From IMG/VR virus record IMGVR_UViG_3300035659_000004, positions 1 through 64,000 of that record: DNA of 64,000 bases. One strand, written 5' to 3'. Shown one piece after another: positions 24,068 to 57,184 of this stretch; the stretch's first letter is position 1, and each line of letters starts with the position of its first letter. The notes under the pieces are model-generated. The model was not told the DNA's origin. It worked only from the letters and a program-made list of their open reading frames with translations, and did no database searches. The position numbers were made by a program, and so were the translations under genes. Source of the stretch: a virus.

Positions 24068-27000
24068 CGATTGTGTCCTCCGTGATCTCATCCTCCTGCA
24101 TTTCTTCTGCTTCTTCTTTTTTCTTTTCTTTTCCCTTATCTGCTAAAGAAGCGCTCTTAATGTTTGCGTCGTGGGCATCCAACCAGTATCTCCCGTTAAA
24201 TACCATGACGTTGTCGATGCTCACGCCTATTCCCATAGACATAGAAGCACGACTGAGGATACCGGATTCTTTAATCGCTTCATCGGTTAGTGCCGCGGGA
24301 TGTCGTCCGAGCGTATTACGTAAATTCAAAGCACTTGTGGCGTTAGTGTTTCGCTCGTGACTAGGTAGGAGGTGCGTTATAACTTGTTCGATATTGAAAA
24401 GCATTAATTGTTTTAGTTCGTCATAGAATACCCCTACACCTGTATCGTTGAGTTCTTGGCGCCATGAGCGGTTGGCTATTATGCGCGCTAAGCTTTGGCA
24501 CTGCGCAGTTTCTTTGAAATCCGATAGGCGGATTACGCTGTGGTGGAGTATCTTGGTGAGATACGTATCGGCATCGCTACTTTGGGTCGTGCGCCGGATT
24601 AACGACTCATTATTTTTTACGTACTCTTTAAAGAAGGACATATAGTCAATGCCAATCGTTTCAAGCACGGCGAAGACGGGGAAAAATGCGGACATGAATC
24701 GGAATTCAACTGATGATTCTAATTGGTCTTTAATTTTGTCGTAGCTCGATCTGAATGCAGTGTAATGTTCACGTACTTTAGGAATATGTGAATACATACC
24801 AAAGTTGACAGCTAAGCGTAAATCATACAGTTCTTGGGGGGAAAAGACTCGATGAATCGAAGAGTTTGGGTCGGAATATCCTATACGTTTGACCATGTTA
24901 ATACTGATGATACGATTTAGGTCTTGGGGTTTGTCTGTCCCTGTTATACTTCCGAATATCACGGGGACATTAATGCAGCGTGTTATAGTCCCTTCTCCAT
25001 TCCTATTCATGGTTGTTCGGGAGCTATTTCCAGAAGTAGCTCCACGTAACATTTCTAGAAATTGGTCAGTCGCCTGTTTATTTTTGACGGTATCTGATTC
25101 AAGTTCGTCTACGCAGTACAGGATAGCACAATCCTCAGCATCAAACGCTAGGGCTGGAACGGTTATATGCTGAACATAACGTGACGCATACAGGAGTTGA
25201 ATACTCAAATTGCTCGAATCTTTTTCTACCTCGCTGAAAACAGACTGTAGGGTGGTTTTTCCAGACCCTGTTTCCCCTGTAAAGTGCACGACGACTTGCC
25301 GGTCGAAGCAGGACATAATAGGAAAGGTCAAAATCAGGGCCGCTAGTAGTTGGCAGTTTAGGTCTTGCTGGGCAAAGATAAACCCGGTGTCGAAATAGCG
25401 GCACAGATCATGATATACCTTTTTCATATCGTACTGCTGCGCTTTTCTAAGTACGTCTGGAGTAAGAGGTTCTAGTCGGTTGAACCATTTGCGATTTATG
25501 ACGGCGTCATCTTTGTAAGTATCGACGAGAATATTTCCAATACGGGGAGAAGGGAGGAGGTTATAAGAGATATCGTTGTCGGTACGTATTATGTCGTAGG
25601 CGTCTGTTCCGTGAACTAAAATTTCTTTTGAATCTAGGTGGTGATATCCATTTCGTATGTTCTTGAGGTTGCTCATACTGGGAGCATCGGGGACTAGTTG
25701 TAATACGGCCTCGCGCAGGATATATCTCAATTCTTTATCGATACGACTGAGCGAGTTATCGGGGATGACGATACATGAAGGTAGGCCTACTTCTTTTTCT
25801 AAAAAGGTTATAATAGTTCCTGTGATACTTGCGATTTCCTGGATGATGCTGCGTTCGCTGTCCAATTTAACTCGTGCGAATTGTTTTTGACGCTTGTTAT
25901 AAAGGACTAGTGTAGCACCCTCGCTTGAACTTCGGTCTACGCCAATTACCGTGAAGAGTGACCTTAAAACTTCTGCAACGCGGTCGATATACGTTTTTAT
26001 GTTGGAATCGTTCGATATGATTCCATTCTTAATAGGATTGGGTCGTAGGATTGGGTACAGATTGCAGAGAGCTTGGACATACGCTTCTATGTCTTCTTTT
26101 CGATGTAGCGTACGCCCTACAGAAATCGCGGTAGAGGTCATGGTAGTGACATCATCCGCCGTGTATTCCTGGAGTTGTAGTATGGCCGCATCAACTAACC
26201 AACTCCAAGCCGGTTTATAACTATCTTTGTCTAGTATCGTGGAAGAAATAAATTGAGGACTGAGTGCGGGGAGGACATAAGCATTATCCAAGTCTTCTGC
26301 CGGAGCCAGTTTTTCCCAGGCGGCATCTGTGAAGATGACGACGCCACACTCGGGGGCGGTGATGGTGTTTATCCACTGCGCCAGAACATTCGCGCTTGAG
26401 TTCGAGTTACCTTTCGAAGGAGCATCCCCTATGAGATACAGATACTTGACGTCGTTCAGCTGTATTACTGAATCGAAGGCAGCTAAGGAGCTCGTTCCTC
26501 CGGCACTCACGACGGCACATTCGACCACGCCTGTTTGAAGGCATTGTACCATGGGCTGTAGCGCGTCGAATTCACCCTCTACAACGACGTAAGACTTTAT
26601 TTTTTGGGTCGAGTTATTCCGTAGGAATTCTCGGTAGGGTCCGAAATTCAATCCGAAAAAACCCATTCCAGGCTCGAAATTATCCTGGAGGAGCGTGATG
26701 CGTTTGTTTGCTCCTACAGCATTTGGAAGCCGTATGCGAAATGCGGCGATGTGTTCTTCTGCCGTACAGAGGGGAAACACGACGCCACCTGTCGCGCTGT
26801 TGGACACACCCTTGTTCACGTCTTTATTTAAGAATTCCGATATAGTTTGTATTAATGCTAAAGCGTTATCGTGTTTGGTTTTACGGTTAGGACTTTCAAG
26901 AAGTTGTTTCGCTAAATTAGGGATAGCAGAAATAGGAGGGACTATCCCGATAGGAAGGTCAGGTAGAATATTCAAAGGCAATTTGCGTACGGACACGAGC

Positions 27001-29672: not shown

Positions 29673-29690
29673 ATAAACAGGAGGTAATTG

Positions 29691-30638
29691 ATGAGCGAAA
29701 GTTATAGTGATCGAACATTCCAAGCATACTATAACGATGTAGGAAAACATGCGGTAATATCCGCCGAAGAAGAACGCCTATATCTAACGCGATATAAAAC
29801 ATGTCCGCAATGTAATAGAAGCCTTCCGAAACTAGTACGACAAGCCTTTTGCCCTACTTGCAAAAAACCAATCACCGAACATGTCCAACCGGGGCGCCCT
29901 ATTGTGTGTACGAAGTGTACGACACGTTTTGATTCGTTTAAACCTCCTTCGTATTGTCCATGGTGTGGAGCTTCTAGGGATTTAGTATCACGCGAAAAAC
30001 TCTTACAAGCGAACCTCCGTTTTGTTGTGAAGATTGCTAAAAAATTCGCTAAGTCCACCTCCTCCATTCAACGTTTAATTTCTGCAGGAAATGTCGGTCT
30101 TGTCTTAGCTATTGACAAATATGAGTTCAAGCATAACACACGTTTTTTAACGTATGCCGCTTGGTGGATTCGAAAAGAAATATGGGATGAATTGCATAAA
30201 TCGAGTCTCGTACATATCCCTTTGCATCGACAGCGAGATAAACAATCATTGCCAGAGTACGACAGTTTTGAAGTGATGGTGGAGCAAGACCTAGCATACC
30301 ATTCCCTTATACCACTAGAAAACACTCCTTCTCAAGCGCTGGTAACGAATGATGACGACATTGTTGAAACCAAGGCGATAGATGCAGATAGTGCGGCGCT
30401 ATTACGTAGGGTAGTAGATAGTTTAGACCTCCGTCCCCGGGACAAATTTATTATTCTCCAACATTATGATGTCGCAGAAGAGACCCGAAGGACGGAGGAG
30501 AAAACGTTGATGCAGATTGCTTCCGCGGCAGGAATTACATCCGAACGCGTGAGACAAATTAGGGATGGGGTTTTAATGAGATTGAAGACGAAACTGCAGA
30601 AGTCTTGCGCGATCTCGGAATTTTCCGAGCTCTATTAG
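29691..30638 (+). CDS. Sigma-70-family factor with inserted double zinc ribbon
   Basis: A 315-residue sigma factor. The TTG at 29688 also fits, but AGGAGG 7 bases before the ATG at 29691 decides the start. Residues 8-36 resemble region 1.2. Region 2 is clear (EKLLQANLRFVVKIAKKFAK, then DKYEFKHNTRFLTYAAWWIR). Region 4 is a helix-turn-helix (LMQIASAAGITSERVRQI). Between 1.2 and 2.1 lies an insertion with four Cys pairs, C38/C41, C54/C57, C73/C76 and C89/C92, enough for two zinc ribbons. Region 3 is degenerate. It presumably directs either host or the phage's own beta/beta' RNA polymerase (39445-48080) to phage promoters. The gene converges on the ParB-like gene with a 4-base overlap. Confidence 0.85.
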   Translation: MSESYSDRTFQAYYNDVGKHAVISAEEERLYLTRYKTCPQCNRSLPKLVRQAFCPTCKKPITEHVQPGRPIVCTKCTTRFDSFKPPSYCPWCGASRDLVSREKLLQANLRFVVKIAKKFAKSTSSIQRLISAGNVGLVLAIDKYEFKHNTRFLTYAAWWIRKEIWDELHKSSLVHIPLHRQRDKQSLPEYDSFEVMVEQDLAYHSLIPLENTPSQALVTNDDDIVETKAIDADSAALLRRVVDSLDLRPRDKFIILQHYDVAEETRRTEEKTLMQIASAAGITSERVRQIRDGVLMRLKTKLQKSCAISEFSELY

Positions 30639-34514: not shown

Positions 34515-34908
34515 TTTTTCCTCTCACGTAGATAATGGGTTCGCCCGCAGGCAATGTGGACTCGGCCCCCATCCGTTTACGGGTCACGATATCTCCTTCG
34601 TGGTTGTACTCATACACGACACCTTCGAGACGGAGACTCTCATTTAGCAAGTTGGACAATTCCTCGGGGGTGGTTTCGGGTGCAGTTGGCGGGATGGGAG
34701 GAGCAAGAGGCATCGGGGCGAGTGTTGCTCCGCGGACTGGAGGGGTATAAACAGGGAACATGCTGGAAGGTTTCTGTATCCCCAAAAGGTCCAGATTCGT
34801 TTCGATTACTATTTTCCCTTCAGGAATGAAGGTCACGCGGGTGACCTCTGTGTTCAGTGCTTTGGACAGTAGTTGGGATAATTCGTCAAAGGTTACTAGG
34901 ACTTCCAT
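34504..34908 (-). CDS. Unknown Pro-rich protein
   Basis: The frame opens at 35001, but AGAGGTGA lies just before the ATG at 34908, giving 134 residues (MEVLVTFDELSQLLSK). Two similar halves, FDELSQLLSKALNTEVTRVTF and PEELSNLLNESLRLEGVVYEY, flank a Pro/Ala-rich linker (PLAPPIPPTAPETTPEE). They look like two copies of a small alpha/beta domain. The start overlaps the helicase stop by 13 bases. The function is unknown; an adaptor between helicase and nuclease is possible. Confidence 0.6.
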   Translation of the reverse strand: MEVLVTFDELSQLLSKALNTEVTRVTFIPEGKIVIETNLDLLGIQKPSSMFPVYTPPVRGATLAPMPLAPPIPPTAPETTPEELSNLLNESLRLEGVVYEYNHEGDIVTRKRMGAESTLPAGEPIIYVRGKNDE

Positions 34909-36938
34909 CGTACAATCACCTCTGGTTCGACAGTCTTCCGACTGATTTTGGAGGAATAGACGCAACCCACGGACCACGGAATAATCTTCGCTTTCAAACA
35001 CGCGGCGTAGCGTTCACAGAGGATGCAGTTCACTTTTTCCGTGAGCACTCGGGCAATATCCTCTCGGTTATCCAGCGCAATGAGCTGCTGGATTTCTACG
35101 CTTTGCTTTGCACACAGCCGGTATACAACCGTTTTTCGGGTTTGGCCTATTCGATATTCACGAGCTCGAGATTGTAGCCAATGTTCGAGCGACCAAGAAC
35201 GACTGTAATACACGGCGTAACGGGAAGAAACAAGATTGATGGCGATGCCTGTAGATTCTTGTCCGAGGTACACGCGGCAATTTGGATCGGTATTAAATCT
35301 TTCGGCGAGCGCTTTGATATTGTGGGTGGAACGCCCATCCACGCGCACAAAGATGGTCTTTTCTTTATCTAAAAGTTCAGCAATATCATCCATCTCTGCC
35401 ACTAAGTTAGCCCAGATGACGACCTTCTCTTCAGGATTATCGAGGAGGTCTTCGAGTAGGTCTTTTAACGCATCGAGCTTGGGATTATGCGCATAACGTA
35501 GCGTGTGGGTCGTAACAAGATTTTTCGTTTCATCGAAACGCATACATCGTTGCGTTCCAGGCTTTATCTCATTCACGACACAAGTGATAACACGTGGACA
35601 TGTATCGCAAATCTGTCCGGCCTTATCATCTTTTGCATACAGAAAACCGCTGCAGATTTGGAGAAGTTTATTTAAACGAACTCCTCCGCTGAGGTTTTTT
35701 ATTACTAGCTGTTCTCCAAAATCTAATTCAACATATTTAATAATGGAATTGTAGTCTTTGAGTTGTTCCGTGGTTAAGTCGAATAAGATATCGACATCGC
35801 TTAGTTCCGGAAGATCCACGCAGTCATCGATATGTTTTTCACTCGAGATGCTGTTAATGCGCTGGCTAACGACATTTAGATTTTTATACCCTACGATAAT
35901 ATGTTCATTGTACTTAGAAATCACGCAGAACTTTTTGCGATAGCTCATGTAGTCTTCAGGGCACATGTACTTGGCCAGGGCATTCATCTGCGGGTATAAA
36001 TCTAAAGGATTACCCATGCTAATAGTGCCGGTGAGTAGATAACGTCGCGTGGCTCGTTTGCAGAGCTCCACGACCGCCTTCGTCCGTTGACTACGGATGC
36101 ATTTGATTCTATGTGACTCATCTAGAATAATGATTTCATAGGGAAAATCTGTTAGGCATAGGTCTTTTGGAAAAGCTGCAACACGTTTCTTAATTTCAGA
36201 AAGAGATACCATGCCACGATAATCAGAGAGAATTGCAAGAGCATCTTTTTCAGTGAGGCCCAGCATACTTTTCTGGAGGACTAGGGGGATGGGGAACTTA
36301 CTTGTTTTTACTGCTTTCGTTACTTTTGGAGACAGCGTCCTGTTTCCGTAAAGGCGTGCAGCATCGTACGTAGCTAAAAGGATATCGTAATCTTTTTCGA
36401 TACTTAGTTGGAGAGCTTTGAGTTTATTTTGTCGTGTTGTTCCTTTTAAAACTGCGGTATAGAGGGTACCGTTTGAGTGTAGTGCAATCTCATCCACCCA
36501 GTTGTCGATGGCTATGAGCGGCGCAATGATGAGGGCCTTTTGTTTTAATTTTGTTAGGGCCTCAACGACCACCTTTGTTTTGCCCGTGCCCATCTCCCAG
36601 CGTAACGCCCATCGATAGTTATACAGGAGTTCCGCTACGCCTTCGTCTTGATGCGCGTAGTTTGGATAGGGTCCTAGCGAGGAGGTCTTTTTCACCTCTT
36701 CTAAAAGCACGGAATACGGAAGTACCCGGTCGATATGCACCTGAGCAGATTCGTCGTGTTCGATTTCTAGTGCTTGAAAATCATTGAGAACTTTTTCAAT
36801 GAAGGGGGGATAGGCTGGATACATCCAAGCATTGTAGTTTTTGAGGTATGTTCCTCCGAAGATGCGGGATAAGACGGGGTCCTCATCCTTAACGATAAAT
36901 ACAGGGGTTCCGGCAGAGAGCGCGAACGAAGCTTTCAT
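34896..36938 (-). CDS. SNF2-family (SF2) helicase
   Basis: A 680-residue ATP-dependent DNA translocase. Motif I is EMGTGKT (115-121), motif Ia is LIIAPLIAIDNW, motif II is IIILDESHRIK, motif III is YLLTGT, and the C-terminal lobe ends in LQSRAREYRIGQTRK (motif VI). The first 60 residues resemble the annealing-type domain in front of some SMARCAL1-like proteins. A CDTC/C-rich insertion sits between the lobes (near ICDTCPRVITC), and the C-terminus has CILCERYAAC, both probable zinc sites. Phage SNF2 proteins act in replication-fork or recombination steps. AAGGAG precedes the ATG. It is the first gene of the operon that runs to the ParB-like gene. Confidence 0.85.
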   Translation of the reverse strand: MKASFALSAGTPVFIVKDEDPVLSRIFGGTYLKNYNAWMYPAYPPFIEKVLNDFQALEIEHDESAQVHIDRVLPYSVLLEEVKKTSSLGPYPNYAHQDEGVAELLYNYRWALRWEMGTGKTKVVVEALTKLKQKALIIAPLIAIDNWVDEIALHSNGTLYTAVLKGTTRQNKLKALQLSIEKDYDILLATYDAARLYGNRTLSPKVTKAVKTSKFPIPLVLQKSMLGLTEKDALAILSDYRGMVSLSEIKKRVAAFPKDLCLTDFPYEIIILDESHRIKCIRSQRTKAVVELCKRATRRYLLTGTISMGNPLDLYPQMNALAKYMCPEDYMSYRKKFCVISKYNEHIIVGYKNLNVVSQRINSISSEKHIDDCVDLPELSDVDILFDLTTEQLKDYNSIIKYVELDFGEQLVIKNLSGGVRLNKLLQICSGFLYAKDDKAGQICDTCPRVITCVVNEIKPGTQRCMRFDETKNLVTTHTLRYAHNPKLDALKDLLEDLLDNPEEKVVIWANLVAEMDDIAELLDKEKTIFVRVDGRSTHNIKALAERFNTDPNCRVYLGQESTGIAINLVSSRYAVYYSRSWSLEHWLQSRAREYRIGQTRKTVVYRLCAKQSVEIQQLIALDNREDIARVLTEKVNCILCERYAACLKAKIIPWSVGCVYSSKISRKTVEPEVIVRWKS

Positions 36939-36998: not shown

Positions 36999-38738
36999 AT
37001 GACAACGACTTCCGAAACGACGTTAATGTCCACGGGTGGACTCGGGCACTCTAACCCGTATTTCACCTATAGTCAGCTCTTTGCGCCAAAGCGGTTAAAA
37101 GAACTTTTTAAAATGTGTGAGTACCTGTTTTATAACAGCCCACACATCTTCGCGGCGCTTCGGAAGTTTGGGGAATATCCGATAACAGAGATTACGTATG
37201 ATACGGATAATGCTCAGTTAAAAGAGAAACAGAAGAGCCTTATGGAGAAAGTAATTCGCGCAAAAGAATTCCTTCTGAAGGCGACGCTGGATAAGTATAT
37301 TTATGGAAATTCCTTCACTTCTATGTACCAACCGTTTGTCCGGTATTTGACTTGTCCCAAGTGTCGCGCCGCGACCAACATCAAGCACGTCGACTACTCT
37401 TTCACGCTGCAGACATTAACCTTTGCTTTTAAATGCACGTCCTGTAGCAACCCGGTAACGGTGGGAGAGAAAAACGTGGAGGACCGAAAGTTGATGCTCA
37501 CCAAGGACATCAACTTCATTAGGTGGGACCCGAAGTGCATCGATATCGAGCACAACGTTTTCACTGGGGAATCCATTTACTACTATACGATCCCCGCGGA
37601 CACCGCGGCGCAGGTTCGACGAGGGCAAAAGCACATCATCGATACGACTCCCTGGGGTTTCCTGCAGGCCATCAAGGAGCACAAGCCCTTCAAGTTCGCG
37701 CCCGAGGCCATCTTCCATATGAAGTTCTGCGCGCCGGCAGGTGTGAATCCTCAGTGGGGCCTTCCTCCGTTGCTGCCGGCGTTGGACCGCTTCTTCTACA
37801 CGCAAATTCTGCGGAAAGCGAATGAGGCCATCGCCCTCGAGCACCTCGTACCTTTCCGCATCGTATCCCCCGCTGCTTCTTCAAATAGCGGAGACCCTAT
37901 TCAGTCTATCAACCTCGCGCGGTGGATAGAAAACATGAAGAAGAACGTGCAGGATTGGAGAAACGACCCCCTGCACATCATGTACGCGCCTGTCCCGGTA
38001 GCCGTCTCGCAGCTCAACGGACAGGGGCGAGCTCTGCTGACGCTAGGGGAAGTGCAGGAAGCGGAGAAGTCCCTCGTTGCGGCCCTCGGTATTCCCCTGG
38101 AGTTCCTCTACGGCGGACTCACGGGGCAGGGCATGAGCGCGACCCTACGCATGATTGAGAACCAGCTCGCGACGCACGTCAGCGACCTCACAGACCTTCT
38201 TCAGTGGATGAACGACTCCTGCAGCAAGTTCTTGGGTTGGGAATCCGTACAGGTGGGGTTGATTCCTTTCCGAATGGTGGACGACACGGAGAAGAAGACG
38301 ATGCTCCTGCAGCTCTGGCAAGCTGGTTTGCAAGGGATGGGTCCGCAGACTATCTCGACAACGACGATGGCGGAAATCAACGACATCGATGTTCAGAAGG
38401 AATACGGACGTATCAAAGAAGAGACGATACAAAACGCGCGCAGAGGCCAAGAGCTGCAGCGTGAGATGAGCAAGATGCAGAATACGATGGCTCAGGAAGT
38501 GCAGCAACAGGCCGGAGCAGCAGGTCCACAGGGCTATGACCAGCAGCAAATCATCGCGCAAGCAGACCAGTTGGCTCAGCAGTTTTCACAGATGGACCCC
38601 TCGACACGACGAAGTCAATTGCATCAGCTGCAGACCGAGGACCTTGTGATGTATTCGGTCGTGATTCAGCGGCTTGAACAGCAGCAGACGGTTACGCGGC
38701 AGCAGGCGACTATTCAGACACAAGGGGGTATGGGATGA
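36999..38738 (+). CDS. Portal-like protein with zinc-ribbon insertion
   Basis: A 579-residue protein. The middle region, with FHMKFCAPAGVNPQWGLPPLLPALDRFFY and AALGIPLEFLYGGLTGQGMSATLRMIENQ (each wholly within 230-390), fits the wing and clip layout of phage portals. The Gln-rich helical C-terminus fits a crown. CPKC near 125 and CTSC near 147 form a zinc ribbon not typical of portals. The portal is the dodecameric vertex through which TerL loads DNA. It starts the long plus-strand block that carries the RNA polymerase and head genes. The divergent gap to the helicase is 60 bases. Identification is from pattern, not search. Confidence 0.7.
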   Translation: MTTTSETTLMSTGGLGHSNPYFTYSQLFAPKRLKELFKMCEYLFYNSPHIFAALRKFGEYPITEITYDTDNAQLKEKQKSLMEKVIRAKEFLLKATLDKYIYGNSFTSMYQPFVRYLTCPKCRAATNIKHVDYSFTLQTLTFAFKCTSCSNPVTVGEKNVEDRKLMLTKDINFIRWDPKCIDIEHNVFTGESIYYYTIPADTAAQVRRGQKHIIDTTPWGFLQAIKEHKPFKFAPEAIFHMKFCAPAGVNPQWGLPPLLPALDRFFYTQILRKANEAIALEHLVPFRIVSPAASSNSGDPIQSINLARWIENMKKNVQDWRNDPLHIMYAPVPVAVSQLNGQGRALLTLGEVQEAEKSLVAALGIPLEFLYGGLTGQGMSATLRMIENQLATHVSDLTDLLQWMNDSCSKFLGWESVQVGLIPFRMVDDTEKKTMLLQLWQAGLQGMGPQTISTTTMAEINDIDVQKEYGRIKEETIQNARRGQELQREMSKMQNTMAQEVQQQAGAAGPQGYDQQQIIAQADQLAQQFSQMDPSTRRSQLHQLQTEDLVMYSVVIQRLEQQQTVTRQQATIQTQGGMG

Positions 38739-39395: not shown

Positions 39396-39444
39396 ATGCA
39401 AAGGTCTCCTCTCTATATACTTGTACCCAAAGTCGAGGTCGTAT

Positions 39445-42400
39445 ATGAATTTGACACCCATCCTTCAAAGTCCAGATGAGAAGCGCGAACGTATTCGGAA
39501 TAAGGTCGTGGAAGGACTGACAGAATCATTCCCAATTACGGCGCGTAACAAAATCATAGAAGTGACAGATGTTTCTTTTACTCCTCGAGACTACACCTCG
39601 AACGAGCAAAAGATGGCTATCTTGAGAGGTGATTCTCTTTTCGAGACCGCGAAGGGGACAGTGAAAATAAAAGACGCGAAGACGGGTAAAGTCTTGGATG
39701 AAGCGAAGGGATTTACATTAGCTCGAGTACCGTGGTTTACTCCACGACACACGCTTATTGTCGGAGGAAATGAATATTCGATTGCGAATATGGTGCGTCC
39801 TAAACCAGGGGTGTACGCTCGCAAGCGCGCTAATGGAATTCTCGAAGCAAGTTTTAATACCATAGGTACTTCGAACTTTAATGTAACGATGGACCCTGAA
39901 AAAGGTGAGCCAGAACTCGAATATGAATCCTCGAAGATTCCCCTTTACACCATTCTTCGTGCATCGGGTATGTCCCATGAGACTATCGCGAAGAAGTGGG
40001 GTACTGCTCTTGCGAATGAGAATCGAAAGAAGCTAGAAAAGAATCTTCCGCAACACGTAGACCGTCTTTATAAAAAAGTCGTACCGGCGTATGCCCTTCT
40101 TCCCGATCTTACTGTCGATGCGAAGATGGCTGAGATTGTTAAGCGTTATGGTACGGCTAAGATGGACCCAAAAGTAAATGAAAAAACGTTGGGACACGCG
40201 TATGGACACGTAACTCCTGACAGTCTTTTGGATGCATCAGCTAAAGTTTTGAGTATTTTCCGTAACCCAGAAGAAGTCGATGACCGAGATAATCTCGACT
40301 TCAAATCTTTGCGTTCAGTAGAGGACTTTTTCAAGGAGCGTATCCAACTCGATGCTCGAGACATTGGACGTAGAGCTGCTATTAAAATCGAGAATACCCC
40401 TGAGGTACGCAAGGCCATGGCTCCCGGGGCGTTCACTCCTGGCCTCGTCAAATTCATCACGGGCTCGCAGTTGGCAGCTGTTCCGACGCAGACCAACCCC
40501 ATGGAGCTCATCGATGCCGCAGTACGTGTGACGGCATTGGGTGAAGGTGGTATTAGTTCCGAACGTGCTATTCCAATGGAAGCACGGATGATTCATCCGA
40601 CGCAGATTGGAGCTATCGACCCTGTTCGAACGCCTGAGTCTTTTCGAGCGGGTATTGACGTCCGTGCTGCTATTGGAGCGCATCATGATAAAGATGGTAA
40701 CATCTATGTTCCCATGTTCGATTTGGCGACGGGGAAACAAAAGCATATTCGGGCAGGAGAAATTGCAACTTCAATCGTGGCATTCCCTCAGCAAGTTTTA
40801 AAGGGGAAGGTCTCAGCGCTTGTTAATGGACGTGTGGCGATGGTTCCTGCTAGTAAAGTTCAGTATCAAATACCACACTCATCTGCGATGTATGGACCTA
40901 CTTCAAATCTCATTCCGTTCATCGAATCGTTGCAAGGGAATCGCCAACTGATGGGGTCCAAGCATCAGACCCAAGCTATCTCGTTAGTTGATCGAGAAGC
41001 TCCCTATGTACAGGTAATGGCGCCGGGTGGAAAATCTTTTGAGCATCTCATGGCGACGATTGTTAATCCAACAGCGCCAGTTGCGGGAACAATTGAGAAA
41101 GTAGATGGGGATTACATCTACATTCGACCACATGATAAGACAGCAGCCGTTAAAAAGGATAAAGACTCGGACCTCGTGCGCGTGTCATATGATACGTACT
41201 TGCCGATGGCTGCTAAGACCTATCTCAACCATACCGTCACGGTGAAAGCGGGGGATGAGGTTAAGAAGGATGAGATCCTCGCGGAGTCTAATTTCACGAA
41301 AGATAAGACGCTAGCTCTCGGTAAAAATCTTTCCGTTGCATACATGCCTTATTACGGAGCAAATTCAAATGACGCGGTAGTTATCAGTTCCGGCGCCGCT
41401 AAAAAGCTGACGTCCGAACGTCTCTATAAAATTGTGCTCCCGCGTGACGCTGACATGGTTTTCAATAGTACGAAGCATAAGACGTATTACGGACATACCT
41501 ACGGACATGACTATTACAAGGGCGTAGATGAAGAAGGAGTAGTACGCCCGGGTGCGAAAATTAATAGTGGGGAACCTGTCGTATTTGGGTTGCGGAAATC
41601 GACCCTGACTTCTGATGATATTCTTCTGGGACGTCTGCACAAATCTCTCGTCCGACCTTTCCGAGATGCGACGCAGACCTGGGACCATGACCATCCCGGA
41701 GAAGTTATGGATGTCGTAAAGACGCCTAAGAGAATTGCAATCACAATAAAAACACAGGAACCTATGCAGATAGGTGATAAACTCTGTTACACGGAAGATA
41801 CAGAAGTCCTGACGACAACGGGGTGGAAGTACATTGTAGATGTTACCACCGATGATATTTGTTATACGCTCGATACGCAGGGCATAATTCATTTATATAA
41901 TCCTACACATACTAACTATTATTCTAAAGCAGGACAACTTTTTTTAGTACGTTCACAGCATGCAGATTTATCTGTGACGTTGGACCATAGTCAGGTAATT
42001 AAAGATGGTGATAGGAATAAATTAGTCCCATCGCGTGAATTGGTTAATAAGCCTTTTCAATTGGTGCGCACAGGAATTTGGACGCCGAAGAGTGCTCCTG
42101 AGTCAGACTCATGGTGTGCACTAGTTGGTTTATACGCCGTAAAAGGACATCTTATTCCTGCGACGCTTATACAGGGAGTTATGGACCATTCTGTAGAGAT
42201 TTATCTACGTCCGCGTATGTTAGAAGAAGAACGTCCTTGGTTGGACCTTATTTTGCAAGATACGCACCTGAAAGATAAGAGTTATATTCAAGGTGATATT
42301 TTGATTATCCGAGACCGAGATTTTTATTTAAGTTGTCAAGTATTAGGGGACGTCGTAGAACGGCGACTTCCAACATTGGTATTCACTCTGGCTCCTAGCC

Positions 42401-44805
42401 AAGCCGGGATAATTATTGATAGCGTTTTAAAAGCCGCAGGTCATCAGACAGGACGAAGTCATATTCAGTACGGAGATGGGACTGATGTCTGTGTCGTGTA
42501 TTCGCGGCAGTTAGCGGATGATCTACAGCGCTTGGCGCTACACGCGGGGTATTCTGCAAACATCGCAACGCATACAGTGAAACGCCCGCAATATGCGAAA
42601 CGTTATTCGCTGCGGTTCCTCCGAAAACGTAGCAATCCGTTCATCAATAACCCGAGAGGTAACCAACAGAACACGCGAGTTATCGATTCAGATGCTCCAG
42701 TGTTTGGTATTACCATTCCAAATCACACCTTGTACGTGCGTGTGAATGGAAAGCCTGTGTGGTCAGGTAACTCCGGGCGATACGGGAATAAGGGTGTGGT
42801 ATCTGAAATCGTTCCGGATGACCAGATGATTAAAGACGAAGCAGGACGACCTATCGATGTTCTTTTAACGTCAGCAGGTGTTGTCTCGCGCGTGAATCCC
42901 GCACAAATAATTGAGACAGCTGTAGGAAAGGTCGTCGAGAAGACGGGCAAGCCACTCATCGTCGAAAGCTTTTCAGGAAGAGATAATGTGAAGTGGGCGA
43001 AAGACCTTCTTCAGGAGCACGGTCTAAAAGACAAAGAGATGGTTTTTGACCCGCGTTCTGGAAAGAGTATCCCGAACGTGATGGTGGGACGCCAATACAT
43101 CTTCAAGATGTTCAAGTCCACGGACACCAACTACAGCGCACGAGGTGTGGATACCTACGACGCAAATCTTCAGCCTACGAAGGGTGGGTCTGAGAGTGCA
43201 AAGGCCATAGGTAAGATGGAGTTCGACGCGCTTGTCGCACACAACGCCCGGAATGTGTTGCGTGAGTCTTCGGTCCTGAAGAGTCAGAAGAACGATGAGT
43301 ACTGGAGAGCTCTTCAGCTAGGATATCCCACGCCTCCTCCGCGCACGTCTTTCGCTTCGGACAAGTTCTTCAATATGCTGACAGGCGCGGGAGTTCGTGT
43401 TGATCGTAAAGGCTCGAAGATAGGGTTGGCGCCTCTCACAGACGCGGACGTGATGGAGATGTCGGCAGGTGAGATACAGGACGCGAAGCTCGTCAGTGCT
43501 AAGAATTTAATGCCTGAAAAGGGTGGGCTCTTTGATCCTGCAATCACCGGTGGAATGAAAGGAACGAAGTGGTCACATATCAATTTGGCCGAGCCTATTA
43601 TCAATCCTATTTTTAATGACCCAGTTCGGCGGTTGTTAGGGATGACTAACGCGCAGCTCGATAATACCGTGCGCACAAAGGGTATCGGTTACGTTAAATC
43701 CGAGCTCGCGAAGATAGACGTCACGAAACGTGAGAGTGAACTCATGGATATGGCGAATAATAAGAAGGGAAATGTGCTCGATGATGTCACCAAGCAGATA
43801 AAGTATTTGCGGGCATTGAAGGCGCAGAACATATCTCCGGAGAAGGCTTACATCTCGAGCGTTATCCCGGTTCTTCCTCCGATCTTTCGCCCGGTGTTGC
43901 CAGGTAAGGGTGGGCAGGAGCTCATTTACGGCGACATCAATCCGCTGTACCGCGACTTGGTGTACGTGAACAACCAGTTCAAAGAGCTGAAGAAGTCTGG
44001 GAAGCTTCCTGACGAAGAGGCCAAGTTGCGAGGAACTCTCCAATCAGCGGTTGGAGCTGTGTATGGGATGAACGACCCCATCACACAGAAGTCAAAGAGT
44101 AGAAATCACAAGGGATTCCTGACGTATATCGCAGGACAGGGGAGCCCCAAGTACGGGTACGTGCATTCCAAGCTCCTGAAGAAACAGCAGGACTTGGCCG
44201 GCCGCGGAACGATTGTCCCGGATACGACTCTGGGAATGGACGAGGTCGGTCTCCCGGAGAATATGATTTGGACGATGTATAAACCGTTCATGATCACGCG
44301 CCTCGTGGGACAGGGGTATCCAGCGCTGCAGGCGAAGCAGATGGTCGATGATAAGCATCCCGCGGCGCGCGAGGCGATGATGCGCGAGACCCGGGAGCGG
44401 CCGGTCATGATCAACCGTGCGCCGACGCTGCATCGATATGGAATAGTTGGAGCATATGCCATACCCAATGCCGGAAAGACCATAAGAATCAATCCTTTCG
44501 CGGAGGTAGGTACGAACAGCGATTTCGATGGGGATACGATGATGGTCCACGTTCCAGCTGGAGCGAACGCTGTCGAAGATGTGAAGCGCATGACGCTTTC
44601 GAACACGCTTTATACTGACAAGATTCGCGGCGACCTACTCGTGGCGCCTCGGATGGAATCGGTCATGGGGCTCGCGCAAGCTACGGCGGTTACGGGAAGC
44701 GGGAAGGCAAAGGTTTACCAAACCAAAGCCGAAGCGATGGCGGACTACAATTCAGGAAAGATAGACCTGGGAACGAGGGTCACCATCAAGGACCGCAAGC
44801 CGTGA
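39445..44805 (+). CDS. rpoB-rpoC1: RNA polymerase beta / beta' N-terminal fusion, intein-containing
   Basis: A 1786-residue precursor. A TTG at 39421 is possible, but GAGGTC lies 6 bases before the ATG at 39445. The beta part shows HPTQIGAIDPVRTPES, LVDREAPYVQV, YMPYYGANSNDAVVIS, GDKL...SGRYGNKGVVS (broken by an intein), PIDVLLTSAGVVSRVNPAQI and a GKMEFDALVAH C-terminal anchor. Without a break it continues into beta': GGLFDPAITGG, RPVMINRAPTLHRYGIVGA and the catalytic NSDFDGDTM (44515-44535), where the three Asp bind magnesium. It stops shortly after, and the rest of beta' is at 46278. No alpha subunit is recognised. The stop overlaps the next GTG start. Confidence 0.93.
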   Translation: MNLTPILQSPDEKRERIRNKVVEGLTESFPITARNKIIEVTDVSFTPRDYTSNEQKMAILRGDSLFETAKGTVKIKDAKTGKVLDEAKGFTLARVPWFTPRHTLIVGGNEYSIANMVRPKPGVYARKRANGILEASFNTIGTSNFNVTMDPEKGEPELEYESSKIPLYTILRASGMSHETIAKKWGTALANENRKKLEKNLPQHVDRLYKKVVPAYALLPDLTVDAKMAEIVKRYGTAKMDPKVNEKTLGHAYGHVTPDSLLDASAKVLSIFRNPEEVDDRDNLDFKSLRSVEDFFKERIQLDARDIGRRAAIKIENTPEVRKAMAPGAFTPGLVKFITGSQLAAVPTQTNPMELIDAAVRVTALGEGGISSERAIPMEARMIHPTQIGAIDPVRTPESFRAGIDVRAAIGAHHDKDGNIYVPMFDLATGKQKHIRAGEIATSIVAFPQQVLKGKVSALVNGRVAMVPASKVQYQIPHSSAMYGPTSNLIPFIESLQGNRQLMGSKHQTQAISLVDREAPYVQVMAPGGKSFEHLMATIVNPTAPVAGTIEKVDGDYIYIRPHDKTAAVKKDKDSDLVRVSYDTYLPMAAKTYLNHTVTVKAGDEVKKDEILAESNFTKDKTLALGKNLSVAYMPYYGANSNDAVVISSGAAKKLTSERLYKIVLPRDADMVFNSTKHKTYYGHTYGHDYYKGVDEEGVVRPGAKINSGEPVVFGLRKSTLTSDDILLGRLHKSLVRPFRDATQTWDHDHPGEVMDVVKTPKRIAITIKTQEPMQIGDKLCYTEDTEVLTTTGWKYIVDVTTDDICYTLDTQGIIHLYNPTHTNYYSKAGQLFLVRSQHADLSVTLDHSQVIKDGDRNKLVPSRELVNKPFQLVRTGIWTPKSAPESDSWCALVGLYAVKGHLIPATLIQGVMDHSVEIYLRPRMLEEERPWLDLILQDTHLKDKSYIQGDILIIRDRDFYLSCQVLGDVVERRLPTLVFTLAPSQAGIIIDSVLKAAGHQTGRSHIQYGDGTDVCVVYSRQLADDLQRLALHAGYSANIATHTVKRPQYAKRYSLRFLRKRSNPFINNPRGNQQNTRVIDSDAPVFGITIPNHTLYVRVNGKPVWSGNSGRYGNKGVVSEIVPDDQMIKDEAGRPIDVLLTSAGVVSRVNPAQIIETAVGKVVEKTGKPLIVESFSGRDNVKWAKDLLQEHGLKDKEMVFDPRSGKSIPNVMVGRQYIFKMFKSTDTNYSARGVDTYDANLQPTKGGSESAKAIGKMEFDALVAHNARNVLRESSVLKSQKNDEYWRALQLGYPTPPPRTSFASDKFFNMLTGAGVRVDRKGSKIGLAPLTDADVMEMSAGEIQDAKLVSAKNLMPEKGGLFDPAITGGMKGTKWSHINLAEPIINPIFNDPVRRLLGMTNAQLDNTVRTKGIGYVKSELAKIDVTKRESELMDMANNKKGNVLDDVTKQIKYLRALKAQNISPEKAYISSVIPVLPPIFRPVLPGKGGQELIYGDINPLYRDLVYVNNQFKELKKSGKLPDEEAKLRGTLQSAVGAVYGMNDPITQKSKSRNHKGFLTYIAGQGSPKYGYVHSKLLKKQQDLAGRGTIVPDTTLGMDEVGLPENMIWTMYKPFMITRLVGQGYPALQAKQMVDDKHPAAREAMMRETRERPVMINRAPTLHRYGIVGAYAIPNAGKTIRINPFAEVGTNSDFDGDTMMVHVPAGANAVEDVKRMTLSNTLYTDKIRGDLLVAPRMESVMGLAQATAVTGSGKAKVYQTKAEAMADYNSGKIDLGTRVTIKDRKP
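41785..42771 (+). mobile_element. Intein in the beta subunit, with a degenerate LAGLIDADG region
   Basis: 329 residues interrupt GDKL/SGRYGNKG. Cys1 opens block A (CYTEDTEVLTTTGWK). Block B is near SVTLDHSQVI, with the Asp-His in the usual His position. The C-terminal blocks are PVFGITIPNHTLYVRVN and then GKPVWSGN, with terminal Asn and Ser as the +1 extein residue. The penultimate residue is Gly where His is usual, a known variant. An LVGLYAVKG segment at 42121-42147 resembles the first LAGLIDADG motif but has Lys at the acidic position, so the homing endonuclease is probably inactive. Splicing is required to rebuild the polymerase active site. Confidence 0.9.
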
Positions 44806-46274
44806 CAGATTCTCCGACGATCATCTCCGGACCGGACTATACCCTGACTAAACAGGAAGTGGTCGATTACTATAAAGACCCGGGGGTTCGAGAAAAGCTT
44901 CTTCAGCATATCGGGAGCAACCCTGTTCTGACTGTGATGCAGCGCACCCCCGGGGAGCCCATCTATCGACGCTACGACGCGAAGAAGCAGCCTCTTCTTC
45001 TGAATCCCCAGTCGTTAGACGACCTTACGAGGCAACGTACCGTGGAGTTCCACTCTACCCTCGGCGAGGGTACACGGGAAATGTGGGTAGATTTGGACCC
45101 TGGCTCGGCGGTCTCTCCCGGCCGGCTCAAGCAGACGGTGAAGCACGTTGAAGACGTGTTGCGAAAACTCCCTCAGGTCACGAATACGAATATCGTTTTT
45201 TCAGGAGGTCGAGGCTACCACGTGCGCGCCGAGCTCGAGAAGGAGCTCAAGACAGACGCCGCCCGAAAGCTTCTTCAAAAGACGTTGCGCCCGCTGCAGA
45301 CGTCGAGCCCCGACCTTGTGGATGCTCCTCCTGGAGGAACTCAGATTCGCTTGGATACCTCGACGTTCCATGCCAAAGGGTCTGTGCGGGCGCCCTACTC
45401 TTTGAACGCGACGACGGGACTGGTAGCGTTGCCTGTGGCGCGTGAAAAGTTGGACATATTCGAGCCCAAGACTGATGCGTCCATCAAGAGTGTCTTGTCC
45501 CAAAAAGACATCGGGGAGTTTGCTCCAGGGATTCCTCGAGAGCGAACGACTCAGCTCCTGCCGACTGCCAAGGGCAAGGCCTGGACGCTTGCGATACAGA
45601 AGCACGTAGCTGAAAAGGCTGGACCGCATTGGGACTTGCGCCTCGTTGACCCCGAGACAGGACAGGCCCATTCCTGGGCGGTCCCTAAGGCTTCTTTTCC
45701 GGACTCCAAGCCACGCCTTGCTTTGCAGATGCCAACGCATAGCGCGGACTACGCCCTTTCTTTTGGTGCGAAAGGTCCGCAAACTATTCGTGAAGGGTAC
45801 GGTAAGGGCACGGTGGAGATGGCGCATAAGGAGCCTATCCAAGTTTTGGAAATCAATCCAAATAAGGTTGTTTTTCAGCGCGGCTCCGGGGACACTCTGG
45901 CGATGCGTCGAACGAACGAAAACAAGTGGTTGCTCCGAAAGGCAACGAACATGACTGAGAAGAATGCTTTTTACGTTGCTGGATACCGCGCGGCGCTTGC
46001 CAAGCTTGGGGCAGCGGCAGTTAAACCTGTGGGAATGCGTGGAAAAGAGATGTCCTATGGAGAGGGAAACCGTCCCCTGGAAAGTGGAGATTCCCATCTT
46101 CCCGCGGGACAGGTTGCGATGATGTTCCAGCAGTTGCCCCGAGCTCAACGACGAGGTGGCAGTGTATCGTTGGAGAACTCGTCAGCCGTCGGAGATAACC
46201 ATGCGGATTGGGGTCCAGCAATGGACGTCTCGAGTTTTGATGGAGCTTCTCCGTATATGGCAGGACGGAACTGA
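44802..46274 (+). CDS. AEP primase / LigD-type 3'-phosphoesterase fusion
   Basis: A 490-residue protein with a GTG start overlapping the polymerase stop (GTGA). Residues 90-220 show archaeo-eukaryotic primase motifs: WVDLDPGS (Asp97, Asp99), VFSGGRGYH (134-140), and RLDTSTFHAKGSVRAPYSL with Asp185. Residues 260-345 match the LigD phosphoesterase: His268, His276, Asp278 and Arg280 in IQKHVAEKAGPHWDLRL, SWAVPK, and His313 and Tyr317 in THSADYAL, then EGYGKGTVE. These correspond to the six active-site residues described for Pseudomonas LigD PE, which trims 3' ends by removing ribonucleosides and phosphates. No ligase domain follows. The C-terminus has FYVAGYRAALAKLG, shared with nearby head proteins. 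Confidence 0.82.
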   Translation: MTDSPTIISGPDYTLTKQEVVDYYKDPGVREKLLQHIGSNPVLTVMQRTPGEPIYRRYDAKKQPLLLNPQSLDDLTRQRTVEFHSTLGEGTREMWVDLDPGSAVSPGRLKQTVKHVEDVLRKLPQVTNTNIVFSGGRGYHVRAELEKELKTDAARKLLQKTLRPLQTSSPDLVDAPPGGTQIRLDTSTFHAKGSVRAPYSLNATTGLVALPVAREKLDIFEPKTDASIKSVLSQKDIGEFAPGIPRERTTQLLPTAKGKAWTLAIQKHVAEKAGPHWDLRLVDPETGQAHSWAVPKASFPDSKPRLALQMPTHSADYALSFGAKGPQTIREGYGKGTVEMAHKEPIQVLEINPNKVVFQRGSGDTLAMRRTNENKWLLRKATNMTEKNAFYVAGYRAALAKLGAAAVKPVGMRGKEMSYGEGNRPLESGDSHLPAGQVAMMFQQLPRAQRRGGSVSLENSSAVGDNHADWGPAMDVSSFDGASPYMAGRN

Positions 46275-48083: not shown

Positions 48084-48572
48084 ATGTTTCAGCAGGGATA
48101 TAGCGAAGCATTAATGCATCTTGGATTTGAAAAAAATGCAGCCGGGTGGTGGGCTGCGAAAGCGGTACCTAAGTTAAAAGAGATAGGACAATCCGCTCTG
48201 ACAAATTTTATAGGACAACCTAAACAGTTTGGGCGCGAATTGCGATCAGGTACCGCTTTCGGGTCAGGCGGTTTGATACGGGAAGGTTTTAAAGCTCCTG
48301 GAATTATTCAAAAAGGTCTTATGTATGGGTTTCCCGCAGTTTCTGCTATACAAACTATTCGAAGCAACGACCCTGATAAGGGGGGTGCATTAGGTGGACT
48401 CATTGGTGGAACACTCGCAAGCTCCGCGGCGTTTGGGCCACTTGGAATGCTCGGAGCGATGCCTGCTGGATATCTAGGAGAGGTAGCAGGTAAGCGTTTA
48501 GTGCATGGAGCAAAAAATATTTTAGGTATTGGGAATCAGACTGCTCCAAGATATACTTCTTTGCAGCAGTAA
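48084..48572 (+). CDS. Gly-rich hydrophobic protein, probable head or membrane-active
   Basis: A 162-residue protein beginning FQQGYSEALMHLGFEKNA, the short motif shared with neighbouring genes. The second half is Gly/Ala-rich and hydrophobic (GGLIGGTLASSAAFGPLGML), compatible with one or two membrane or glycine-zipper helices. AAGGAAAG precedes the ATG. It is encoded directly after the beta' C-terminal gene. It could be an internal head protein ejected with the DNA; no family is recognised. Confidence 0.55.
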   Translation: MFQQGYSEALMHLGFEKNAAGWWAAKAVPKLKEIGQSALTNFIGQPKQFGRELRSGTAFGSGGLIREGFKAPGIIQKGLMYGFPAVSAIQTIRSNDPDKGGALGGLIGGTLASSAAFGPLGMLGAMPAGYLGEVAGKRLVHGAKNILGIGNQTAPRYTSLQQ

Positions 48573-48622: not shown

Positions 48623-49114
48623 ATGAACGCAGAACTCGTGAAGCAAGCGTATGCCTACGGTGCCGCAGTTGCGCTACAGGAACTTGGTTTCAACCCACAG
48701 CAAGCTCAGAATGGGGGAGTGAAGTTGGCGGAAGCCAAGCTCGCCGAGGGGGAAGAAGAAGGTGGAATGCATCCAGCTTTGGCCGCTCTCCTTGGCGGTG
48801 GCGCGGGTGCTCTCGGCGGTGCGGCTTTGGGTGCTGGCAGTGCGTTCATTCCTGGTTTACGCGGCGGAAGAGGTTTGAATAAACTGTTGGGGCGTCCAAT
48901 GTCCGCGGCACAAGGCGGCGGTATTATGGCTGGAAAGGTCACACCCGACGCTCTGTTCAAAAACAAATTCGTGCGCAAGCATTTGATGAACCAAGGTGAA
49001 GCGGCGGCTGACTTCCTGCCAAAACTGCAGGATGCATATCTTCGTGGAATGGGTGGCGCAGGCGTAGGCGCTCTCGGTGGAGGCCTTGCTGGCGGCCTAA
49101 TGGCGGGTGAGTGA
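48623..49114 (+). CDS. Gly-zipper-rich protein, probable internal virion protein
   Basis: A 163-residue protein starting NAELVKQAYAYGAAVALQEL, the shared N-terminal motif. Two long glycine-zipper-like stretches (ALLGGGAGALGGAALGAG and GGAGVGALGGGLAGGLMAG) suggest membrane insertion or close helix packing. A Lys/Arg patch lies between them. AAGGAAGG precedes the ATG. Similar in style to the product of the gene at 48084 but not clearly homologous outside the motif. Confidence 0.55.
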   Translation: MNAELVKQAYAYGAAVALQELGFNPQQAQNGGVKLAEAKLAEGEEEGGMHPALAALLGGGAGALGGAALGAGSAFIPGLRGGRGLNKLLGRPMSAAQGGGIMAGKVTPDALFKNKFVRKHLMNQGEAAADFLPKLQDAYLRGMGGAGVGALGGGLAGGLMAGE

Positions 49115-55102: not shown

Positions 55103-57184
55103 ATGATGAAGAAGATTGTCCATCTCGACTCGCACTTCCCGACCGGCGAGCAAACGGTTCAGCCGGTGATGCTGTGGTCGAGAGGAAAAAGCTTCATCGA
55201 GCCCATCACGAAGTATGCCAGCGTTGGAGCTGAGTATTTCAAGACCATCGAACCCATTCCAGGGCACAGCATTGTTTACGTTCTCGCCGTCAGTGCATGG
55301 GAGCGCTACGGCGAGAATCGTAATGGAGATGGTTTTCCGGACCAGCCGTATAAACCTCTCTCTAGTCCTCCATGGATTTCAGAAGATGAAATTCTAAGCA
55401 AGCACTACAAATCTTTTGAGCAGTTCGGTTTCAATTACCGTCATCATCAGAACACGGACCCTGAAAAGTCTGTCGGACGTGTGATGCGTGCGTTTTGGAA
55501 TCCGACCATGTATCGCGTTGAACTCCTGATTGATGTCGATAATGCGAAGGCTCCGGATTTAGCAAACCGTATAGCCGCGGGAGAATACCCCCCTGTTTCC
55601 ATGGGTACTAAGGTCCCCTGGGACGTGTGCCTAATCTGCGGAAATAGAGCTCCTACCCGCGCCCAATACTGCGACCACCTCCGTTTTCAGATGCGTGAAG
55701 TCGTCAACGGATTGAAAGTCGCAGCCTTGAATCCGAGTTGTAAGTTCTTCGACATCTCCTGGGTGGTACGTCCCGCAGACCCCAACGCTTACATGTTGAA
55801 GAAGGTCGCGGAAGAGGCCTATGAAATCAAGCTCTCGGGAGCAGCTGCAGGTGAATACTTGGACGAGATGCAAGAGCGTAAGATGGCCGCACACAAACTC
55901 GCGGTCATCGACAAGGTCGTACAGGGAATTCCAGTAGATGCTAAAACCGAGGGTGTTGACCCCATGCATCTTCAGAATATCCAGACGATGCAACCCACCG
56001 CCCAGAGCATGAGCGCAGGTCTTCCCGAGCTCCCGGATGATTTGCTCCGGCGCCTGGCTTCTTCTTTTTCGCTGCCGGAAATCTTCACCTCGACGTTGGC
56101 GATGGGCATGCCTCTTTGCACCCGCGAGGTCGTGAAGATTACTATCTACCGGCAGATGCCCCAGGTTCCGAACATGGATGGGATAGCGGATGCGGCTGTT
56201 GCAGCTCGACAGCCCCTGCTCGGTCTTTTTCAAGAGCACCCTCAAATGCTGGATGCTTTTGAAAAGGATTTGGACATCGACCAATGTCATCTCAATCCAA
56301 AAGTTGCGGAAATGATTGGCACTGGAATGGAAAAACGTTCGGGTATTTACGAGTATTTGAAACGGAAATACATCCCGGGAAAATACCGTGACGAAACTTC
56401 TCAATTGACGCCTTTCACGCTCACGGACCCTGTTTCAGGGCAGCGCTATGGGACCAATCGTTGGGCAGCTATCCAAGCTCACGACGAAATTGCGAAAAAG
56501 AATTTACGCAAAGTTATTGGTGGAGGCGCGGCGTTGGGTGGGGCTTACGGTCTCATTTCTGCAGGGCTTCGTAGCAAAGGTTTATCTAAACTGAATCCCC
56601 TCGTAGCGGGTACCTTAGGTGCTGTTGGTCTTTCTAACTTGCCTTCCATGGGTGCTCACTACATGACCGATCAAGGTGTCCCTATCCCAGTACTCACAGA
56701 GCTCACGAAGATGAGCGTGGACTCTTCTAGTTTTTCACGCTCCCTCGCATTGCCTCTTTTTGGTACACTTGGAACAATGGCTCTTCTTGGAATGGATCGT
56801 AGACACCGTTTAGCCCAGGGCTATATTCCGGGTGACCCTAGTGAAGGAGTCTTACGGCGAGGGGTTGATACGCTCGGCTCTGCTGCAGCTAATTACCCCC
56901 TGCTTTTTGCAGGACTAGGAACCATGGGTCTTCGTGCTGCAGGGAATACGCAAACAGCTAAATACCTCGGAGAAAATATTGTCGGACCTTTAGCGCAAAA
57001 GGGAAAGAGTTGGGCTAATAAAACGGATGAAGCTCTTCGAGGTTGGGCTAAGAAGACAGACCAGGGTGTAAAAGATTGGGCGAGTACGAAGACCTCGTCA
57101 GACACGGTAGGTCTTCCTGATTTGGATATGGACAAAATTGCTGAAAGTCTCGGCAAAATTCTGTTAGCAAACACGGTCTTGTAG
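55103..57184 (+). CDS. Candidate prohead protease fused to a hydrophobic C-terminal region
   Basis: A 693-residue protein. The first 260 residues contain NGDGFP, FGFNYRHHQNTDPEKSVGRV, YRVELLIDVDNAKAPDLA and YPPVSMGTKVPW. The order His then a strand then an I/V-x-V-x-x-G-x-V repeat then a V-S-x-G Ser is the layout of herpesvirus-type phage head proteases (gp21/U35-like). A zinc-ribbon-like CLICGNRAPTRAQYC follows. The C-terminal third is Gly-rich and hydrophobic, with possible membrane segments near residues 470-520 and 555-580. The site among head genes supports a maturation role. Fusion to such a tail is unusual, and the catalytic residues are not proven. Confidence 0.5.
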   Translation: MMKKIVHLDSHFPTGEQTVQPVMLWSRGKSFIEPITKYASVGAEYFKTIEPIPGHSIVYVLAVSAWERYGENRNGDGFPDQPYKPLSSPPWISEDEILSKHYKSFEQFGFNYRHHQNTDPEKSVGRVMRAFWNPTMYRVELLIDVDNAKAPDLANRIAAGEYPPVSMGTKVPWDVCLICGNRAPTRAQYCDHLRFQMREVVNGLKVAALNPSCKFFDISWVVRPADPNAYMLKKVAEEAYEIKLSGAAAGEYLDEMQERKMAAHKLAVIDKVVQGIPVDAKTEGVDPMHLQNIQTMQPTAQSMSAGLPELPDDLLRRLASSFSLPEIFTSTLAMGMPLCTREVVKITIYRQMPQVPNMDGIADAAVAARQPLLGLFQEHPQMLDAFEKDLDIDQCHLNPKVAEMIGTGMEKRSGIYEYLKRKYIPGKYRDETSQLTPFTLTDPVSGQRYGTNRWAAIQAHDEIAKKNLRKVIGGGAALGGAYGLISAGLRSKGLSKLNPLVAGTLGAVGLSNLPSMGAHYMTDQGVPIPVLTELTKMSVDSSSFSRSLALPLFGTLGTMALLGMDRRHRLAQGYIPGDPSEGVLRRGVDTLGSAAANYPLLFAGLGTMGLRAAGNTQTAKYLGENIVGPLAQKGKSWANKTDEALRGWAKKTDQGVKDWASTKTSSDTVGLPDLDMDKIAESLGKILLANTVL

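Follow-up and report, generated by a model that had tools for sequence, protein, structure and literature searches.

A LigD-type polymerase-phosphoesterase protein encoded at the natural split of a phage multi-subunit RNA polymerase

We analyzed a 64,000-nucleotide stretch of viral DNA (positions 1 to 64,000 of the IMG/VR virus record IMGVR_UViG_3300035659_000004, hereafter the window), in which an open reading frame (ORF) stands between the two halves of a multi-subunit RNA polymerase (RNAP), and its product is confirmed to be a LigD-type polymerase domain joined to a LigD-type 3'-phosphoesterase (PE) domain, hereafter PrimPol-PE (Table 1). The identity of the two domains holds because profiles, catalytic residues and predicted fold all agree. 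The protein occupies the natural split of the RNAP beta' subunit in a whole clade, and its carriers are a large, mostly uncultured phage group. The domains themselves are already known; it is their arrangement at a phage RNAP locus that differs. Because sister phages carry other combinations of LigD parts at the same locus, the finding suggests that these phages have a kit for strand-break repair that is linked to their RNA polymerase.

An initial annotation of the window had assigned both domains from the letters alone, and Pfam, searches of the PDB and AlphaFold modelling followed by Foldseek bore out the ORF as well as the two assignments. In Pfam, the ORF matched LigD_Prim-Pol over residues 60-233 (E-value 1.1e-15) and LigD_N, which is the PE domain, over residues 266-340 (E 1.4e-6); the C-terminal half does match the PE family significantly, at a score (28.8 bits) slightly under the curated cut-off of 31.1. 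No ligase domain was found in the protein with Pfam, in keeping with the ligase-less architecture that had been proposed. Sequence searches of the PDB returned the polymerase domain of Mycobacterium tuberculosis (Mtb) LigD for the polymerase half (2iru, E 1.3e-6) and an archaeal PE for the PE half (3p4h, E 1.1e-4). An AlphaFold model built from 20 relatives gave both domains a predicted local distance difference test (pLDDT) score of mostly 80-95, with most of the last ~105 residues disordered. The best Foldseek match in the PDB to the first domain was the Mtb LigD polymerase domain (PolDom; 3pky, E 2.5e-13), with template modelling (TM) scores of 0.64-0.71 over LigD-type targets, and the second half matched the archaeal PE 3p43 (TM 0.80 over the target, root-mean-square deviation 2.3, E 3.8e-6). 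Residues 11-380 are collinear with Rhodococcus LigD. PHROGs held no match to PrimPol-PE, and no protein in the BFVD viral structure library matched it comparably. Chance resemblance was ruled out by the fold matches together with the recurrence of the protein, which occupies one and the same position in 33 viral contigs with identities as low as ~35-40%.

The six residues that the initial annotation had listed for PE catalysis (H268, H276, D278, R280, H313 and Y317) are all present, and are kept in 36/36 phage PE domains (one position being unreadable in one of them) and in 15/15 cellular LigDs. In the polymerase domain, of the archaeo-eukaryotic primase (AEP) type, the metal ligands D97, D99 and D185, which form the catalytic triad, are kept in 20/20 phage sequences, motif II of the window copy reads SGGRGYH with its histidine H140 present, and K17, the equivalent of Lys26 in the 5'-phosphate pocket of Mtb PolDom, is lysine or arginine in all 20. 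Purifying selection acts on PrimPol-PE, with a ratio of nonsynonymous to synonymous substitution rates (dN/dS) of ~0.04 in PE, where it is strongest, and ~0.09 in PrimPol, both values being rough since dS is saturated.

The Loop 1 segment is deleted in every one of the 20 phage PrimPol-PE sequences; this loop is specific to the AEPs of non-homologous end joining (NHEJ), where it is required for end synapsis, and is dispensable for the filling of 1-nt gaps (PMC3898472). Its loss bears on a role in double-strand end joining, in which the phage enzyme would replace or assist host LigD/Ku in NHEJ, e.g. for genome circularisation or rescue. That both domains are LigD domains, and collinear with a bacterial LigD, speaks for such a role, but no Ku (PF02735) was detected in any of 22 phage records (which may be incomplete, leaving the absence provisional), and no ligase was detected in the PrimPol-PE phages with PF01068 (ATP-dependent), PF01653 (NAD-dependent) or a family-specific hidden Markov model (HMM) run on contigs that included two of 172 and 179 kb, an absence that is likewise provisional. 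On the missing ligase, Ku and Loop 1, a canonical NHEJ LigD is rejected; the NHEJ context that the initial annotation had given for the two domains does not carry over to the phage, and we regard end joining as improbable.

The location inside an RNA polymerase operon proved to be stronger than first claimed, as the gap is a natural split of beta' found across a clade, which falls after approximately residue 551 of E. coli beta'. Among the IMG/VR loci with a contiguous PrimPol-PE, the fusion of beta to the N-terminal part of beta' (beta-beta'N) lies upstream in 33/33, and the C-terminal half (beta'C) lies downstream in 29/29 of those that reach far enough, the other four stopping at a contig edge; near-identical contigs are included, and the 33 represent fewer independent viruses than that. 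Translational coupling with the RNAP genes, as had been proposed, is supported by the upstream GTGA overlap and by the start of beta'C 3 bases past the PrimPol-PE stop, and across the clade the spacing to the neighbours is mostly near zero. Scans for promoters and terminators across the region yielded nothing beyond what shuffled sequences gave. In a tree of beta'C, 18 PrimPol-PE representatives and one phage that keeps the tail alone (our handle L029) form one clade, with a Shimodaira-Hasegawa-like approximate likelihood ratio test (SH-aLRT) support of 100, and two more PrimPol-PE phages, L059 and L063, are placed outside this main clade. No PrimPol-PE relative, and hence no cultured phage with the same enzyme, was found among 50,697 GenBank phage records. 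Other arrangements of the locus were also seen: beta and beta' form one unsplit polypeptide of ~2,040-2,570 aa, a relative of the split enzyme, in L092, L093, L094, L095, L097 and L098, and in relatives that lack PrimPol-PE the RNAP halves flank a helical protein, ferritin-like by eye (L045 7025-7633, L053 7237-7959 and L060 7638-8168).

As judged from sequence comparison, LigD modules are reshuffled beside the phage RNAP, with PE as the recurrent companion and its partner (polymerase, ligase, helicase or kinase) being swapped; PE alone is another variant at the RNAP locus of sister phages. At the same locus in L047, L048, L073 and L091, PE is fused to an ATP-dependent ligase with the ligase motif KxDG and a predicted fold that matches DNA ligases, and phages with unsplit beta-beta' carry PE-ligase downstream of it (L093, L095 and L097). 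Another clade encodes PE and a separate ligase gene on the opposite strand of the RNAP gap (L075, L077, L078, L080, L081, L085, L096 and L099), in some of which PE is fused to an SNF2 helicase. Between beta'N and beta'C, L255 (3343-6438, + strand) encodes a protein of 1031 aa in which a P-loop kinase-like domain separates a PrimPol at one end from a PE at the other; PrimPol and PE are encoded by separate genes in L254, and are found inside proteins of 1743 and 2222 aa in L256 and L257. A tree of PE places 36 phage domains on one side of a branch versus 15 cellular LigDs (support 99/95), the cellular sample being narrow, with actinobacterial and proteobacterial LigDs only. A first scan of contigs, for which the alignment of phage proteins was used, gave no cellular relative, and a second had solely actinobacterial LigDs among its best 80. 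Individual contigs showed further architectures: a PE-SNF2 fusion between the RNAP halves with a separate ATP-dependent ligase gene nearby (L075 3796-5727, - strand; L078; L081), a gene in the RNAP gap whose 939-aa product combines PE, ligase, DUF4269 and peptidase C39 domains (L073 4258-7077, + strand), and a PrimPol-PE in which ~80 additional residues, similar to a helical repeat, stand between PE and tail (L004 7750-9465, + strand).

Such diversity bears on whether the split gene is a permissive insertion site, whose PE proteins are independent passengers with functions unrelated to RNAP. Unrelated genes (ferritin-like, HNH, hypothetical) do occupy the gap of other phages; however, PE-bearing genes recur in it in several clades, the phage PEs fall on one side of the tree (on the narrow cellular sampling given above), and PrimPol-PE keeps its place and its close spacing across the clade. 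We therefore give the passenger explanation little probability.

The C-terminal tail (~105 aa) is homologous to a stand-alone gene of ~97 codons that lies directly before beta'C in phages without PrimPol-PE (profile search E down to 8e-7; hhalign probability 98%). Its helix has the form F-Y-x-x-G-Y-x-x-A-L-x-x-L-G, and in the window's phage the tag pattern has 8 matches versus 0.6 expected from shuffles, 5/8 of them N-terminal. With a position matrix for the tag that was trained on non-PE proteins only, the tails of 14/18 PrimPol-PE proteins and the N-termini of two PE-ligases beat shuffles (p ~0.002-0.017). The tag may be a packaging, capsid-targeting or sorting signal, with RNAP binding as the alternative. 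The tag G-Y-x-x-A-L-x-x-L-G is also N-terminal on further, otherwise unrelated proteins of this phage, encoded at L102 4591-5025 and L103 1817-2362 and 2359-2802.

One alternative is that, during infection, the enzyme serves the phage RNAP as a subunit-like accessory, anchored on beta' through the tail; it would then repair nicks met by transcribing RNAP or process RNA 3' ends in RNA-DNA hybrids, in the manner of transcription-coupled repair or R-loop clearance. The action of PE enzymes on 3' ribonucleotides, the strict linkage of the gene to the RNAP halves, the presence of the tail's homolog before beta'C even where the enzyme is missing, and the PE-SNF2 helicase fusions of other phages at the same locus would all suit an accessory. 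The tag, however, is also found on proteins away from RNAP genes, which a packaging or sorting signal fits better, and in some phages (G027) the PE-ligase gene is distant from RNAP. We view an accessory role as possible, if rather unlikely, and, with confidence that is about evenly balanced, favour co-packaging or co-expression with the virion RNAP over a purely transcriptional role.

The explanation that we prefer, and to which we give roughly an even chance, is a gap and 3'-end repair enzyme, probably carried or expressed with a virion RNAP, that would clean and refill breaks for sealing by a host ligase. At a break or gap, its PE domain would strip off 3'-phosphates or 3'-ribonucleotides that block the end, the polymerase domain would then fill the short gap, probably with a preference for ribonucleoside triphosphates (rNTPs) like its relatives, and the host ligase would seal it, none having been found in the phage. 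Substrates would be nicks and short gaps, handled with no Ku and no bridging of two ends, and hence not by NHEJ. The enzyme would be produced together with the split RNAP of the phage, the tail would probably keep it with RNAP in the virion or bound to RNAP, and phage DNA that is entering the cell or being transcribed would thus have its strand breaks repaired early. The pairing of PE with a ligase that sister phages show at this locus is consistent with a role in end healing, and the trimming and refilling of 3' ends that the initial annotation had suggested appears plausible. We infer the enzymatic activity, the substrate, the use of a host ligase, and the packaging or RNAP tethering. A Ku-free precedent is Prim-PolC, which fills gaps of 1-3 nt with rNTPs in base excision repair and acts with LigC, without Ku, in that pathway of mycobacteria (PMC5663958). 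In virions of the cultured Salmonella phage Arash, which has the same RNAP split, RNAP beta is the most abundant protein by spectra, and beta', sigma and a helicase are also present (PMC10585845).

Several points weigh against this explanation. The authors of the Arash study concede that virion enzymes could be carry-over (PMC10585845), the Arash record is without PrimPol-PE, so that what its virions show concerns RNAP only, and the tag is not present in Arash. The tail is predicted by AlphaFold to be disordered. The rest of the 5'-phosphate pocket (the equivalents of Mtb Asn13 and Lys16) is not conserved in the phage sequences, and the motif II histidine, kept in the window copy, is a tyrosine in 10/20 relatives, in some of which polymerase activity may be altered or lost. 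We put forward only tentatively, as less probable, that a large lineage of tailed phages has a modular strand-break repair system of LigD parts (PE with a polymerase, ligase, SNF2 helicase or kinase), which would be tied physically by the tag or tail protein to a virion-borne multi-subunit RNAP, with the genome repaired at first transcription.

Table 1. Features of the window and the evidence for them (positions within the window)
Feature	Position	Strand	Evidence or remark
UDG-like (uracil-DNA glycosylase) / 3'-5' exonuclease / family A DNA polymerase, one protein	21011-24091	-	the phage's own family A polymerase
DnaG-type (CHC2 zinc finger) primase protein, 1212 aa	24054-27692	-	likely replicative primase
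Sigma-70-type factor	29688-30638	+	likely partner of phage RNAP
SNF2-family helicase	34896-36938	-	divergent from portal/RNAP block
Portal protein, weak match	36999-38738	+	Arash portal at same place; first gene of block with RNAP and PrimPol-PE
RNA polymerase beta fused to beta'N	39421-44805	+	listed from TTG; ATG at 39445 matches relatives
Intein, 329 aa, in beta at GDKL/SGRYGNKG	41785-42771	+	relative L009 without intein
Catalytic NSDFDGD of beta'N	44515-44535	+	within beta-beta'N gene
PrimPol-PE gene, 490 aa	44802-46274	+	GTG start; overlaps upstream beta-beta'N TGA as GTGA
LigD-type primase-polymerase (AEP) domain, residues ~10-235	44829-45506	+	Pfam, PDB search, fold, residues
LigD-type 3'-phosphoesterase (PE) domain, residues ~258-382	45573-45947	+	Pfam, PDB search, fold, residues
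C-terminal tail, residues ~384-490, mostly disordered, helix FYVAGYRAALAKLG	45951-46271	+	homology and AlphaFold
RNA polymerase beta' C-terminal half, 600 aa	46278-48080	+	Pfam and comparison
Small protein, N-terminal G-Y-x-x-A-L-x-x-L-G tag	48084-48572	+	same tag as PrimPol-PE tail
Second small protein, variant of tag	48623-49114	+	tag pattern
Head maturation protease-like protein (phrog_18299)	55103-57184	+	downstream, in virion gene block

The rest of the genome, in which genes were called on the sequence stretches by a simple codon-bias caller, bears on the proposal of the initial annotation that the enzyme primes replication, its PE domain then removing the RNA primers. The AEP fold and the intact catalytic residues of the window copy are in favour of priming, but the phage has its own DnaG-type CHC2 protein and family A polymerase (Table 1), and a DnaG-type CHC2 protein is present in 10/11 PrimPol-PE records. 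Moreover, PrimPol-PE lies away from the replication block (18-36 kb), in the portal/RNAP/virion block, in fold it is nearest to the gap-filling LigD and Prim-PolC enzymes and not to phage replicative PrimPols, and half of its relatives are without the motif II histidine. The DnaG-type protein led us to reject PrimPol-PE as the sole replicative primase, and we consider any replication-primase role highly improbable. Beside the intein of the window, L038, L039 and L056 have a beta' without an uninterrupted NADFDGD-type motif, which suggests a further intein there.

Compared with known systems, PrimPol-PE has the polymerase and PE domains of bacterial LigD (mycobacterial Pol-PE-Lig order), arranged alike and with the same catalytic residues and folds, and differs in having no ligase domain, Ku or Loop 1, a partial 5'-phosphate pocket, a phage-specific tail and an RNAP locus. 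Stand-alone archaeal PEs (3p43, 3p4h) have the same PE fold and active site, whereas the phage PE is joined to a polymerase and a tail. Mycobacterial Prim-PolC (LigC pathway), which is not known to be fused to a PE domain, works with LigC, whereas the phage enzyme has a PE and no ligase that was found. The two are alike as LigD-like AEPs with no fused ligase that are Ku-free on short gaps (PMC5663958), and 5op0 is a structural match.

Among phages, Salmonella phage Arash and Vibrio phages D69, D148 and D181 are similar in the beta-beta'N / beta'C split at the same place (from annotation, for the cultured phages Arash and D69), the portal upstream and the virion genes downstream, and differ in having other genes between the halves; the records of Arash and D69 contain no PE protein. 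The mReC Caudovirales with multi-subunit RNAP (Weinheimer and Aylward 2020, PMC7481178) are likewise tailed and uncultured, come from metagenomes and IMG/VR, and encode beta and beta' of cellular type, and that paper makes no mention of primase, ligase or LigD. Sections of PMC5512222 describe polyvalent, injected phage proteins that combine PrimPol domains and virion RNAPs in multidomain, late-block proteins, to which some PE relatives, as multidomain proteins of 939-2222 aa, are comparable; the window protein has two enzymatic domains only, and LigD PE was not found in those sections. In the open-licence literature we came across no account of LigD modules at phage RNAP loci.

In cells, the polymerase and PE domains of LigD have established places in NHEJ and base excision repair, and here PE is a recurrent companion of a multi-subunit phage RNAP. 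As a natural Ku-free and Loop-1-free LigD polymerase, the phage enzyme would help to tell the requirements of gap filling from those of end joining, and the repair of nicked phage genomes at the start of infection by enzymes linked to a virion RNAP becomes testable.

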